Shown: one piece after another, positions 38,639-43,930 of the stretch
Numbering within the stretch: the stretch's first letter is position 1
Layout: every line of letters begins with the position of its first letter
NCBI GenBank assembly: GCA_021159005.1
Contig: JAGGSN010000117.1
Location: 1-49,204, forward strand
Source: Candidatus Zixiibacteriota bacterium
Lineage (GTDB): Bacteria > Zixibacteria > MSB-5A5 > UBA10806 > 4484-95
DNA length: 49,204 nucleotides
Direction of reading: 5' to 3'
Program-made: the position numbers and the translations under genes
The notes under the pieces: model-generated
The model's input: only the letters and a program-made list of their open reading frames with translations
Databases searched by the model: none
Told to the model about the DNA's origin: nothing

Positions 38639-40312
38639 CTATGACCTCATCGTGCCCAGATATTTGGTCGTAAGCTGTTTCTCGCGGACATGCTTTTCAG
38701 TATAATCCGGTAATAACATCGGCGCCACACGGTCGCCCTCGATACCGGTTTTTTCGACTTCTTTATTATACTTCACTACATGCTTTAAAGAAAGCTTCGA
38801 ACCATTGGCTTTGTCTTTGGCATAAACAGCGGCGCTCTTACCGGCTATACGGCCAAAAACCATGATGTCTAAAAGCGAATTGCCCATCAGACGGTTTTCG
38901 CCATGCACGCCGCCGGCTACCTCGCCAGCCGCAAACAAACCGGGCAGGGACGTTTCGGCTTTGCTGTTATATTCCAAGCCGCCGTTCTGGTAGTGAAGTG
39001 TCGGGTAGATTAGCATCGGCTCTTTAGCTATATTGATGCCAAAGCGTTTATAAAGTATATGCTTGCCGGGGAATTCCTTTTTAACTGTTCCCTCGCCTGA
39101 AAGCATTTCAATCATCGGAGAATCGAGCCATATGCCAAATTTGCCCGTAGGTGTCGGCACACCTTTTCCCTTAACCGTACATTCCCTAATAATCGCCGAG
39201 GCTTCCACATCGCGCGGCTCGCGTTCGTTAACAAACTGCTGGCCATCGATGTTAACCAGGTTTGCGCCCGAACCTCGGAATTTCTCGGTGATTAATATGC
39301 CTTCAGCTTGTTCCGGGAAGACAACACCTGTCGGATGATACTGGACGGTATGTAGGAAACAAATCTTAACACCGGCGCGGTATCCCATCACGAGGCCGTC
39401 AGCGGTTGCGCCATAGTGATTGGTAGTCATGAACCCTTGAGTATGAAGGCGTCCCGAACCGCCGGTAGCCATAACGACCGCTTTTGCCTTCACAACGATA
39501 TATTCTTCAGTTTCCATATTGTAAAGGACAGCGCCAGCGCAATGGCCTTTTTCATTAAGAATCAATTCAATTGCCGGAGAAAACTCGATTACCTTTATAT
39601 CATTGACGCGGTTGCGGGCTTCATCACGAATTGTTCTCATCATCTCTGCGCCGGTAATATCGGCAGCATAATGCATCCGTTTACGGCAGGTACCGCCGCC
39701 ATGTTTCGTCTGTAAAGTGCCGTCCGACATTTTTGAAAAATTACAGCCTAAGGATTCTAACCAGGCTATAACATCAGGAGCTTTGTTAACCAGCGTTTCC
39801 ACTAATTCTGGAACATTTTTAAAATGACCTCCACCCATCACGTCAATGTAATGATAATAGGGTGAGTCTTTAAAACCCTTGCTAGCGGCTTGAATTCCAC
39901 CCTCAGCCATAATAGTGTTGGCATCGCCATGGCGAAGCTTAGTAGCGATTAGAACTTTTGCGCCTTGTTCCTGTGCCAGTAAAGCTGCTGCCGTACCAGA
40001 ACCGCCGCCGCCAATTACAAGAACATCCGTTTCGTAATCGATATTTGATAAATCAATTAAGGATGGATCAAGACGGCTTTTGGCTTCGATTAAATCGGCC
40101 ATCTCATGAGCGATTTTATAACCTTTATTAGCACCAATTTTCAGTTCGCGGCGTCCTGCTTCCTTGAAATCAGGATGATGTTTGAGAATATCTTTGCGCT
40201 CATCAAGTGAAAGAAAAGTAACTTCCTCATTGCGTTTTTTGCGTTCCACTCTTTCTGCGCGCGTACTTTCGACAATTTTAGCAAGTTTTTTTAATTCTTC
40301 CGGATATGGCAT
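38639..40312 (-). CDS. Fumarate reductase/succinate dehydrogenase-type flavoprotein, non-covalent FAD
   Basis: A 557-residue FAD flavoprotein of the SdhA/FrdA family. The Rossmann loop is VLVIGGGGSGTAAALLA near 95-111. The His that holds FAD covalently in SdhA/FrdA is absent: the matching stretch reads GDANTIMAEGGIQAA, with Asn. VQYHPTGVVFP, FVNEREPRDV with the active-site Arg, and AGEVAGGVHGENRLMGNSLL are all present, so fumarate or succinate chemistry is plausible. An N-terminal extension of about 90 residues precedes the FAD loop. The ATG at 40312 with GAGGT is the start. Genes for an Fe-S subunit, HdrB and HdrC run ahead of it in one operon. L-aspartate oxidase is the main alternative, but the neighbours argue against it. 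Confidence 0.87.
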   Translation of the reverse strand: MPYPEELKKLAKIVESTRAERVERKKRNEEVTFLSLDERKDILKHHPDFKEAGRRELKIGANKGYKIAHEMADLIEAKSRLDPSLIDLSNIDYETDVLVIGGGGSGTAAALLAQEQGAKVLIATKLRHGDANTIMAEGGIQAASKGFKDSPYYHYIDVMGGGHFKNVPELVETLVNKAPDVIAWLESLGCNFSKMSDGTLQTKHGGGTCRKRMHYAADITGAEMMRTIRDEARNRVNDIKVIEFSPAIELILNEKGHCAGAVLYNMETEEYIVVKAKAVVMATGGSGRLHTQGFMTTNHYGATADGLVMGYRAGVKICFLHTVQYHPTGVVFPEQAEGILITEKFRGSGANLVNIDGQQFVNEREPRDVEASAIIRECTVKGKGVPTPTGKFGIWLDSPMIEMLSGEGTVKKEFPGKHILYKRFGINIAKEPMLIYPTLHYQNGGLEYNSKAETSLPGLFAAGEVAGGVHGENRLMGNSLLDIMVFGRIAGKSAAVYAKDKANGSKLSLKHVVKYNKEVEKTGIEGDRVAPMLLPDYTEKHVREKQLTTKYLGTMRS

Positions 40313-40346
40313 AATCAACCTCTTTTATTTGGTTATATTTTCGATT

Positions 40347-41102
40347 TTAAAGGCCCTTGTTATCTTTAGGAATCCAACCTTCGTCCCCTACTGCGGGTTC
40401 AAGTTCGCGCTCCTGATAAACTTTTTTCAATGTGCTTTCATCCATGGCTTTAAGTTCATTTAAACCGTCAGTGAAATGACCGCCTTTAATATTAGCTACC
40501 ATTTTTTCAAGATGTTCAGCGCGGGGAGTAAGAAACGCGCCATTAATTCGCCGCGCCATCTGGGCGATATGGTATTGCGGAAGTTCGCCAAAGCATCTGC
40601 TGGCGCACAAGCCGCATTGAATACAATCGAACGAAATGTGAGCCGCCTCGCCAATATCACCGCGTTTAAGGCAGGCGATATAATCCATCACCTCTACATC
40701 CATCGGGCAAACTTTGGTGCAAGCATTGCAGGCTACACATCGAAAAAGCTCGGGATATATTTCGAATATCTCCTCTGGCTTACCGGTTAGTTTGTCGAAA
40801 TCATAAATAGCGCGATTTGCCGGATAGAACGGCAGCTGCGTTAAATACATCTCCGGTTCGACCACTGTTTGACAAGCCAAACCCGTATAGATTTTATAAT
40901 CACCGGGTTTGCGATAAACAGTGCTGCAGGCGCCGCATACACCGCCACGACAGCCAGCGCCACGGATATACTTGTAGCCGGCGTACTCCATAGCTTTCAT
41001 GATGGTTAACGTTTCCGGAACCTCGTATTTTTTCCCCATTATAAAAATTGGGATCATTTTTGCTTCTACTGATGTTTTTGTTTCTTCAGAAACGCTGCTC
41101 AT
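40347..41102 (-). CDS. Fe-S electron-transfer subunit (2Fe-2S plus two 4Fe-4S)
   Basis: A 251-residue iron-sulfur protein. A plant-type 2Fe-2S domain spans about 20-110 with GAGCRGGVCGACS and the fourth Cys in GLACQTV. Two 4Fe-4S motifs follow near 125-175, CVACNACTKVCP and CIQCGLCASRCF. This is the layout of SdhB/FrdB and of the N-terminal half of thiol:fumarate reductase subunit B, though SdhB has one 3Fe-4S cluster that does not seem present here. It would pass electrons between the HdrBC pair and the flavoprotein. GAGGT precedes the ATG at 41102; an upstream TTG is ignored. Confidence 0.87.
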   Translation of the reverse strand: MSSVSEETKTSVEAKMIPIFIMGKKYEVPETLTIMKAMEYAGYKYIRGAGCRGGVCGACSTVYRKPGDYKIYTGLACQTVVEPEMYLTQLPFYPANRAIYDFDKLTGKPEEIFEIYPELFRCVACNACTKVCPMDVEVMDYIACLKRGDIGEAAHISFDCIQCGLCASRCFGELPQYHIAQMARRINGAFLTPRAEHLEKMVANIKGGHFTDGLNELKAMDESTLKKVYQERELEPAVGDEGWIPKDNKGL

Positions 41103-41148
41103 TTCAACCTCTCTAAAATTTATCAAATTAAATAAATCAACATACTTT

Positions 41149-42039
41149 TTATACAGGAACTTCAGCGATTAGATTTTTTTTAGCGAGAAGCTCCAATGAA
41201 CTTTTACGATTTAGCTCAAAATGACACTTATCCGGAGAAACTCCAAGCGCCAAAGCCAACAATTGTGAAAAATAGAAAACAGGAACATCTTTCGCATCGG
41301 CGTATTTCTCAAGCATAGCATCCTGCCGACGGGATAGATTGTAATCGCATAAAGGACAGGTTAAAACCAGCGCCTCAGCATCATTGGCAGCTGCGCTGCT
41401 TAAAATCTCATGCGATACTTTCAGTGCAGCATCAGGATTGCCCAAAACCTGATAACTGCCGCAACATTCGGTAGCCATCGAAAAATCAACCACTTCTGCG
41501 CCCAGTGTTTCCATAAACTGATGAAATATCTGCGGGTTGTCGGGCGAATCTAAAGCCACATCCTTAGGCCGCAATAAAGTACAGCCATAATAGGGAGCTA
41601 CTTTCATTCTGTTTAATGGCGCTGATATTTTATTTTTGAGCTTTTCCCAACCGTAATCGTCGCGAATATAATCGAGAAAATGAACTACGCGAACATCGCC
41701 GAAATAATCCGGCTCTTCGTCCATAAACGAATTGATAGTATTTCGCTTTTCCTCATCATTTTTCATCAATTCATTAGCGCGGGCAAGCGTGTTGTAGCAC
41801 ATCGAACATAAAGTAATGACAGTATCGTTGCCGCGTTCTTTAACTCTAATTAAATCTCTTACCGGGGCTATAATGTGAATAAGATCATCGTCCGCTAATG
41901 AATAAACTGCCCCGCAACAGTTCCATCTCGGTAATTCTTCATATTCAACTCCAAGAACATCAAGAGATGCCAGAGCGGAAGTTTCAAGATTTTTTGCCTT
42001 AGTTTTAAGCGTACAACCGGGATAATAACTTATCTTCAT
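41149..42039 (-). CDS. Heterodisulfide reductase subunit B-like protein (two CCG domains)
   Basis: A 296-residue protein with two full CCG domains. The first reads YPGCTLK, then WNCCGAV and CSMCYN; the second YYGCTLL, then ECCGSY and CPLCDY. In HdrB such motifs bind two non-cubane [4Fe-4S] clusters that cleave the heterodisulfide CoM-S-S-CoB. The same fold occurs in thiol:fumarate reductase TfrB and in MfrE. A methanogen-type heterodisulfide is not expected in this organism, so the substrate is unknown. GAGGTG precedes the ATG, and the gene follows the HdrC gene after eight bases. Confidence 0.9.
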   Translation of the reverse strand: MKISYYPGCTLKTKAKNLETSALASLDVLGVEYEELPRWNCCGAVYSLADDDLIHIIAPVRDLIRVKERGNDTVITLCSMCYNTLARANELMKNDEEKRNTINSFMDEEPDYFGDVRVVHFLDYIRDDYGWEKLKNKISAPLNRMKVAPYYGCTLLRPKDVALDSPDNPQIFHQFMETLGAEVVDFSMATECCGSYQVLGNPDAALKVSHEILSSAAANDAEALVLTCPLCDYNLSRRQDAMLEKYADAKDVPVFYFSQLLALALGVSPDKCHFELNRKSSLELLAKKNLIAEVPV

Positions 42040-42047
42040 AATTCACC

Positions 42048-42455
42048 TCATGATGTCATTTTACGAAAGCCGGAAACCATAGCAATTTGCGGCAACTCAT
42101 CGATTTTTTCCGGTTCAAGTTTGGCTAATTCTACATGGTCGATATTTTGGCGAAGTTTTATCAAACGGAGAGCTTCCATAACCTTGGCAATATCGATCCC
42201 CCTGGGACAGCGAACCACACATGAATGACATGAAGCGCAAATCCAGGGCATATTAGACTGATTCAGTGCTTCCGCTTGGCCATATTGAATCATTATCATC
42301 ACCTGTCTTGGCAGCAGATTAGCCTCCTCATTCATCGGACAAGAACCTGAACATGTTCCGCATTGGAAACATTGCTGAACATTCTGGCCGCTGATTTCCA
42401 TCACCTTTTTACGTAATTGCTCATCAATAGTGCGTTGCGATATTTTTAATGGCAT
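42048..42455 (-). CDS. Heterodisulfide reductase subunit C-like ferredoxin
   Basis: A 135-residue soluble protein with two 4Fe-4S motifs, CFQCGTCSGSCP near 29-40 and CASCHSCVVRCP near 72-83, the HdrC layout. It would feed electrons to the HdrB-like clusters. There is no membrane helix, in contrast to HdrE-linked forms, and no HdrA flavoprotein gene next to it. It is the first gene of a four-gene minus-strand operon, with AGAGG as ribosome site and a probable promoter at 42562-42590. Confidence 0.88.
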   Translation of the reverse strand: MPLKISQRTIDEQLRKKVMEISGQNVQQCFQCGTCSGSCPMNEEANLLPRQVMIMIQYGQAEALNQSNMPWICASCHSCVVRCPRGIDIAKVMEALRLIKLRQNIDHVELAKLEPEKIDELPQIAMVSGFRKMTS

Positions 42456-42868: not shown

Positions 42869-42940
42869 TTTTTCTTAAAACAATAGAAACAGGAGATAAT
42901 TGGATTTTTCTTAGAATATAGAAAAAGGAGATAATTAAAC
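42869..42940 (+). repeat. 36-base direct repeat carrying two ribosome sites
   Basis: Two near copies, about 42869-42902 and 42905-42936, both read TTTTTC, then TTA, ATAGAAA and AGGAGATAATT. Only the second AGGAG is followed by a start codon (42941). The first may come from local duplication or form a second ribosome landing site. Confidence 0.6.
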
Positions 42941-43852
42941 ATGCGAACTACTAAAATACTAATTATTGCAATTGCCGCAAGCCTGTTAATCACATCAACA
43001 GTTTTTGGTCAAACTACTATTAAACAAAAAACAGATCAGATCGCTAAGGAAAAGAAACTTGATAATAAGGGTGAATTAAAGAAAAAAGGACTTGATATAA
43101 AGGGTGAATTAAAGAAGAAAAAACCCAAATCAGTCAAAAAACGCAAAAGCAATATTCCCGAAATCGAGTTGAAAAATTCAAGAATTACCTATGAATACAC
43201 TACTTTTAATTTCGGCTTGGTTTCTTCCGGCTCAAAGGTTTCTCACTATTTTCCGGTAAGCAATACCGGCTCGGATACGTTAATAATCACTAAAGTTAAA
43301 CCAACGTGAGGATGCACAACCACAAAAAGAAGCGGAATAGTTATTCCGCCAGGCGAAACTTCATATATAGATGTAACTTATAGAACTTCTAAATCGGGAA
43401 AGAGAAAAACTCCGGTTACTAAAACTATCAAAGTTTATAGCAATGATTCATCGAAACCTACTTCTCAATTGAAAATAACTTCGACAGTGAATAACGAGCT
43501 TTTGAAATTCACTTGCCTCCCTCTTCAAGCTGATTTCGAGGACGTGGTTTCCGGCAAAAAAAGTAAAATATCTCTCGAATTAACAAATATAGATACCACT
43601 ATTTCAGAAATTATAACAGTTTCTAATCCGATTTCAGAATATATTAAGAAAACCAAGATTAAAAAGCGGAAACTGAAACCGGGCCAAACTACGAAAATAG
43701 AATTCGAGTTATCGAAAACAGCGCCTATTGGCAACTTTTCTACATCACTGACTATTGAAGCCGCTAATAAGAAGAATTCCAGGATGACAATTCCTGTTAT
43801 AGGATCTATCGTTGCTAAAACTATTAAGTCAAAGGAGCAATCCGGTAAATAA
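42941..43852 (+). CDS. Candidate selenoprotein: secreted DUF1573 (ASH-like) protein with in-frame TGA
   Basis: The frame starts at 42941 with a signal peptide (about 1-23, STVFGQ), has a Lys-rich linker with two DNKGELKKK-like repeats (about 35-65) and runs 303 residues if the TGA at 43307-43309 is read. Residues of about 78-185 form a DUF1573 domain: TTFNFGLVSSGSKVSHYFPV, NTGSDTL and IPPGETSYIDV. The family normally has CGCT right after the LxIxxV strand; here it reads KPT-TGA-GCTT, so the TGA replaces the first Cys. The frame stays open for 180 codons after it, with a second beta domain (about 186-300). A hairpin with GU in its loop begins 23 bases after the TGA. AGGAG precedes the ATG. A nonsense mutation or a read error is the alternative. 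Confidence 0.75.
43332..43349 (+). promoter_or_regulatory. SECIS-like hairpin behind the in-frame TGA
   Basis: GCGGAATA and TATTCCGC form a perfect 8-base inverted repeat around GT, or a 7-base stem with an AGTT loop. The loop G and T lie 31 and 32 bases after the TGA, inside the 16-37 base distance known for bacterial SECIS elements, which need a G early in the apical loop. The stem overlaps coding sequence, as it does in fdhF. Confidence 0.6.
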
Positions 43853-43897: not shown

Positions 43898-43930
43898 AAG
43901 GCGCTGGTAAATAAACGGCGCCTTTTTTAT
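43898..43930 (+). terminator. Rho-independent terminator after the DUF1573 gene
   Basis: AAGGCGC (43898-43904) pairs with GCGCCTT (43918-43924) around a 13-base loop and is followed by further T residues to 43928. It is 45 bases after the stop at 43852, not after the in-frame TGA, which supports one full-length gene. Confidence 0.7.

Follow-up and report, generated by a model that had tools for sequence, protein, structure and literature searches.

An in-frame UGA in the gene for an exported DUF1573 protein of a Zixibacteria bacterium very probably codes for selenocysteine (Sec), as judged by comparison with homologous sequences. The gene lies in a window of 49,204 nucleotides, which is the whole stretch of DNA analysed and corresponds to contig C117 of a 3.66-Mb assembly (97% complete, 241 contigs). 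We regard it as a true selenoprotein gene; ordinary gene callers would truncate it at the UGA. The protein is a divergent member of the known DUF1573/OS_HP2 selenoproteins, and what is new here is the spread and variety of DUF1573 Sec in the candidate phylum Zixibacteria. The features of the locus are listed in Table 1.

Table 1. Features at and around the DUF1573 selenoprotein gene (positions in the window).
Feature	Position	Strand	Remarks
Divergent four-gene cluster: HdrC-like Fer4, HdrB-like CCG, Fer2/Fer4 protein, TfrA-like flavoprotein	38639..42455	-	Context only
AAGGAG ribosome-binding-like site	42925..42930	+	10 nt before ATG; read in sequence
Selenoprotein gene (probable), exported DUF1573 protein	42941..43852	+	303 aa, Sec at residue 123, stop TAA
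Signal-peptide-like hydrophobic N-terminus, residues 1-23	42941..43009	+	By eye; helix 2-22 in model
First Ig-like domain, DUF1573, residues 82-183	43184..43489	+	Spans the TGA; profile match, 89.9 bits
In-frame TGA read as Sec123, first residue of UGC motif	43307..43309	+	Codon 123
SECIS-like hairpin GCGGAAU-AGUU-AUUCCGC	43332..43349	+	Loop 43339-43342, 29 nt after TGA
Second Ig-like domain, PapD-like, residues 190-273	43508..43759	+	Profile match; model
Terminator-like stem 43898-43904/43918-43924, then T run	43898..43928	+	7 bp, 13-nt loop; by eye

The reading frame comprises 304 codons, from the ATG at 42941 to the TAA at 43850-43852. As an earlier note on this DNA had claimed, its sole in-frame stop is the TGA at codon 123, beyond which 180 codons remain open, and this TGA stands exactly in place of the first Cys of the CGCT motif (KVKPT-U-GCTTTK). 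The homology that the note had described on both sides was borne out by the profile search: with the TGA taken as Cys, the match to PF07610 (DUF1573) runs straight across it at 89.9 bits, the gathering cut-off being 26.1. A six-frame scan of the window revealed no other TGA with open stretches of 80 codons or more both before and after it, and the window gave no Rfam matches. The terminator was likewise located correctly, after the second stop only; its stem, read by eye, has a loop that exceeds the limit of our hairpin scan.

A structure predicted from a 40-sequence alignment (mean pLDDT 88.6) starts with a signal-type helix, continues through a basic linker of low confidence and then forms two Ig-like beta sandwiches, with residue 123 in a loop after strand 114-120. 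Both fold and sequence searches matched ASH/HYDIN-type Ig domains of cilia proteins, as well as 2qsv, a Porphyromonas protein of unknown function. At about 0.3 the whole-length TM-scores were low, which is no surprise in a protein of two hinged domains with a disordered part, and therefore only the domain type is to be taken from the fold searches. The model indicates an Ig-type fold of two domains for the gene product.

The earlier note had proposed a search for selA, selB, selC and selD, and all four Sec machinery genes were found in the same genome. selD, selA and selB are consecutive on contig C24, and the gene for tRNA-Sec (selC), which is carried by 111 of the 146 genomes of the relatives set, has the anticodon UCA and scored 70 bits. 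The selD gene itself has a Sec TGA (in CAG-U-ASK) with a hairpin 33 nt after it, and the loops of this hairpin (GUU) and of that in the DUF1573 gene (AGUU) thus share GUU. Reassignment of TGA throughout the genome is unsupported: TGA serves as a normal stop elsewhere, as the note had stated, and ends, for example, one of the two Cys DUF1573 paralogues of this genome (that on contig C85, the other being on C124). It is also opposed by the lack of any second frame in the window that continues past a TGA in a similar manner.

The selD genes of the class show variation of their own. The hairpin loop lies about 18-20 nt or 32-33 nt after the Sec codon, depending on the family, and loops include GUU, GGU, GGUC and AGUU (L114, L173-L194). 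A SelD fusion protein is suggested in families f6, f7 and f15 (L165-L172), where the selD has no TGA and is part of a frame of 734-902 aa.

Homologues of the DUF1573 protein were matched in 89 of 146 genomes. At the column of Sec123, the codon was TGA in 58, TGC in 32 and TGT in 12 of 102 homologues, and none of the 102 had TAA, TAG or another sense codon there. TGA genes were fetched by preference, so these proportions are no census; the absence of other codons is the point. Two checks that the earlier note had suggested, an alignment for Cys/Sec exchange and a search for relatives with TGA at the same codon, were thereby answered in its favor, and the data support a requirement for Sec or Cys at residue 123. 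TGA at this column is spread over many genera, Sec is evidently common in this class (Zixibacteria), and Sec and Cys paralogues lie adjacent to one another in relatives L036, L064, L125, L130, L133, L150 and L151. A tree built from 97 proteins requires Sec and Cys to have been exchanged 12 times, and at least 10 of these changes are forced by well supported branches. Past the TGA, identity to the Sec genes of the two genomes from the same family amounts to 88/180 and 84/169. In four close pairs from elsewhere in the class, downstream dN/dS was 0.10-0.22 and upstream values were much alike, which indicates that the segment past the TGA is, in these pairs, protein under purifying selection. The class is a natural experiment in which homologues and tandem paralogues carry Sec or Cys at one residue, with at least 10 exchanges between them; therefore, what is gained by Sec over Cys can be tested in a small two-domain protein.

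Small exported DUF1573-like proteins were also observed in runs of at least three, in which one member has Sec and another has Cys (L159:3611-6111, L160:4238-6499 and L161:3795-7163). By eye, an FtsX/MacB-like permease lies near the runs of L159 and L160.

The earlier note had described a perfect 8-base hairpin after the TGA. The hairpin is real, but its stem was overstated: because 8 paired bases would leave a 2-nt loop, the realistic fold has 7 bp with the loop AGUU. Published rules for bacterial SECIS elements specify a loop of 3-9 nt with G in the first two positions, a stem of 4-16 bp, a spacing of 16-37 nt and an MFE of -7.5 kcal/mol or lower (PMC13188914). The bare hairpin at 43332-43349, with its 4-nt loop, 7 bp, spacing of 29 nt and -8.2 kcal/mol, agrees with all of these, and the SECIS search that had been proposed was thus positive. 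By the same rules, an equally stable hairpin follows 22 of the 1766 TGA trinucleotides on both strands of the window (1.2%). The hairpin alone is therefore weak evidence, and its conservation is what counts.

Among Sec genes of families f1 and f5, the peptide G-I-V-I-P is written GGR-ATA-GTT-ATY-CC in 12 of the 12 genes read, and one stem pair varies between C-G, U-A and A-U. When ten gap-free genes were compared, 95.7% of stem cells were paired, and neither the pairing nor the covariation score was reached by any of 500 shuffles or by any slid version. Two-sided change was present in only 2 pairs, and 128 of the 500 shuffles had at least as many. The hairpin is missing from Cys homologues of these families, and the Cys homologue L046 encodes a near-identical peptide, GIVVP, without it. 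Selection on the hairpin is supported by these comparisons. A generic hairpin score (16-37 nt, -7.5 kcal/mol) was attained by 7 of 58 Sec and 0 of 44 Cys genes; it separates the two poorly across the class because the hairpin of many relatives lies further from the UGA.

In most Sec genes of families f3, f7, f9, f12, f14, f16 and f18, an alternative hairpin, GCUGUC-GGU-GACAGC, is kept. With 42 nt between the UGA and its loop, this hairpin falls outside the published 16-37 nt. Across 38 aligned Sec genes, 96.2% of cells pair, and a G-C to A-U exchange occurs in 4. A hairpin with a stability of at least -5 kcal/mol is found at this place in 36 of 46 Sec genes versus 4 of 44 Cys genes. Between the UGA and the +42 hairpin there is another, less conserved stem, and this intervening hairpin possibly brings the +42 hairpin nearer to the UGA.

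The motif itself also varies among relatives. Three genes have lost the second Cys and kept the TGA and the hairpin (L050:316-1134, UGL; L054:143-967 and L056:347-1150, UGV); they form one clade from three genomes of family f5 (support 100/99). Each of them carries a Cys at +29 or +30; in most other sequences that column is occupied by F, Y or a different residue. To judge by the order of the strands, the loop holding this Cys (149-158) and the Sec loop should share one end of the domain, and the former may thus provide a new partner for Sec in this clade. Two genomes of one genus have UHC instead of UGC (L116:354-1055 and L122:376-1083). A radiation of exported DUF1573 selenoproteins beyond UGC in Zixibacteria, with +42 hairpins and a suggested re-wired Sec-Cys pair in the UGV/UGL clade, is a reading that we favor by a narrow measure.

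We propose that the hairpin at 43332-43349 would direct SelB with Sec-tRNA-Sec to decode the UGA at 43307-43309 as Sec. The product would be exported and would fold as DUF1573 and PapD-like Ig domains, the first of which, in the predicted fold, carries the Sec-Gly-Cys motif in a loop. Sec123 would most likely act as the nucleophile and form a reversible selenenylsulfide with Cys125; we infer both the export and this bond. Thiol redox chemistry outside the cytoplasm would then be the role of these two residues, a proposal to which we give about an even chance.

The genomic surroundings hint at a thiol/disulfide redox setting. Upstream of the gene lies the divergent HdrBC/TfrA-like cluster, which is possibly a thiol- or quinone-linked fumarate reductase. 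The same divergent layout was recognized by size and sequence starts at the orthologue in another genus (G001, L154), and the cluster is not beside the orthologue in G003 (L155). Because the synteny spans only two genera, the redox role is without strong support from context.

Three other explanations of the in-frame TGA or of its residue were weighed. A Cys codon could have mutated, or been misread, to TGA, so that the downstream frame is a relic; a single base change turns TGC or TGT into TGA, and the assembly is fragmented into 241 contigs. Such an event does not account for a TGA in 58 homologues of many genera with never a TAA or TAG, for the apparent purifying selection on the downstream parts, for a following hairpin with compensatory changes, or for the presence of Sec machinery. 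As a general reading, pseudogene formation or error is refuted by the TGA/Cys-only column, the dN/dS values and the compensation in the hairpin, and we consider it extremely improbable. It is also very unlikely, though slightly less so, that the UGA is mainly a regulated stop, giving a 122-aa product under selenium shortage and the full protein only under ample supply, with selection acting on the switch and not on catalysis. Sec UGA codons generally compete with termination, and Cys paralogues, present in this genome and in many relatives and often adjacent, could replace the selenoprotein when selenium is short. The UGA, however, lies within the DUF1573 domain, so the truncated product would be without a complete domain, and repeated exchange with plain Cys marks a residue valued for its chemistry.

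The third explanation accepts Sec and concerns its use: Sec-Gly-Cys might bind metal or metalloid ions or cross-link partners on an Ig scaffold, without thiol redox cycling. An Ig sandwich of the ASH/HYDIN type is usually a scaffold and is not a thioredoxin fold, and the UGV/UGL clade keeps Sec without the adjacent Cys. Yet redox nucleophiles typically show the kind of free Sec/Cys exchange that is found on the tree, the new Cys at +29/30 in that same clade appears as if a partner thiol were needed, and the redox cluster adjoins the gene in two genera. We hold metal binding or cross-linking to be a possibility of lower probability than the selenenylsulfide, and one to be taken far more seriously than either a damaged gene or a selenium switch.

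The earlier note had presented the gene as a candidate new selenoprotein. The assignment of Sec stands, on the machinery, the column limited to TGA and Cys codons, the covarying hairpin and the signs of purifying selection. The novelty of the family does not, because OS_HP2 has been listed since 2007-2008; a new selenoprotein family is ruled out by that literature and by the NCBIfam model. OS_HP2, equated with pfam07610 and given the motif UxC, appears in the GOS selenoproteome of 2008 (PMC2398784), and DUF1573 with UGC is listed as a selenoprotein in two reviews (PMC9312934, PMC13188914). On NCBIfam NF041425 (OS_HP2 family (seleno)protein), the Zixibacteria protein scored 83.4 bits (E 1.1e-23), below the cut-off of 100, and we therefore file it as a DUF1573 selenoprotein and not as a strict member of NF041425. 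The listing of DUF1573 selenoproteins reportedly originates in a 2007 study of Olavius symbionts. A text search of the open literature for Zixibacteria and selenocysteine returned a single paper that has both terms, and its subject is not selenoproteins of Zixibacteria, so their wide use of Sec appears little described.

Among known systems, the closest are the OS_HP2/DUF1573 selenoproteins of the Olavius algarvensis Delta 1 symbiont and the GOS metagenome, with which our protein shares the domain, Sec at the first Cys of CGC and a bacterial Sec system; as in the published definition of the UGC type, the UGA is in frame at that Cys and Cys homologues exist. The Zixibacteria protein differs from them in its score on NF041425, in the basic linker that follows the signal peptide and in its second Ig domain, and its relatives include forms without the second Cys. 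The Sec-containing SelD of the same genome relies on the same machinery and also has a TGA followed by a hairpin with GUU in the loop, but it is an unrelated cytoplasmic enzyme whose hairpin has another stem sequence and spacing (33 nt). The Cys DUF1573 proteins (PF07610), of which the genome has two copies, have the same domains and the CGCT motif; they differ in having TGC or TGT for TGA, and Cys homologues of the same families are without the hairpin.
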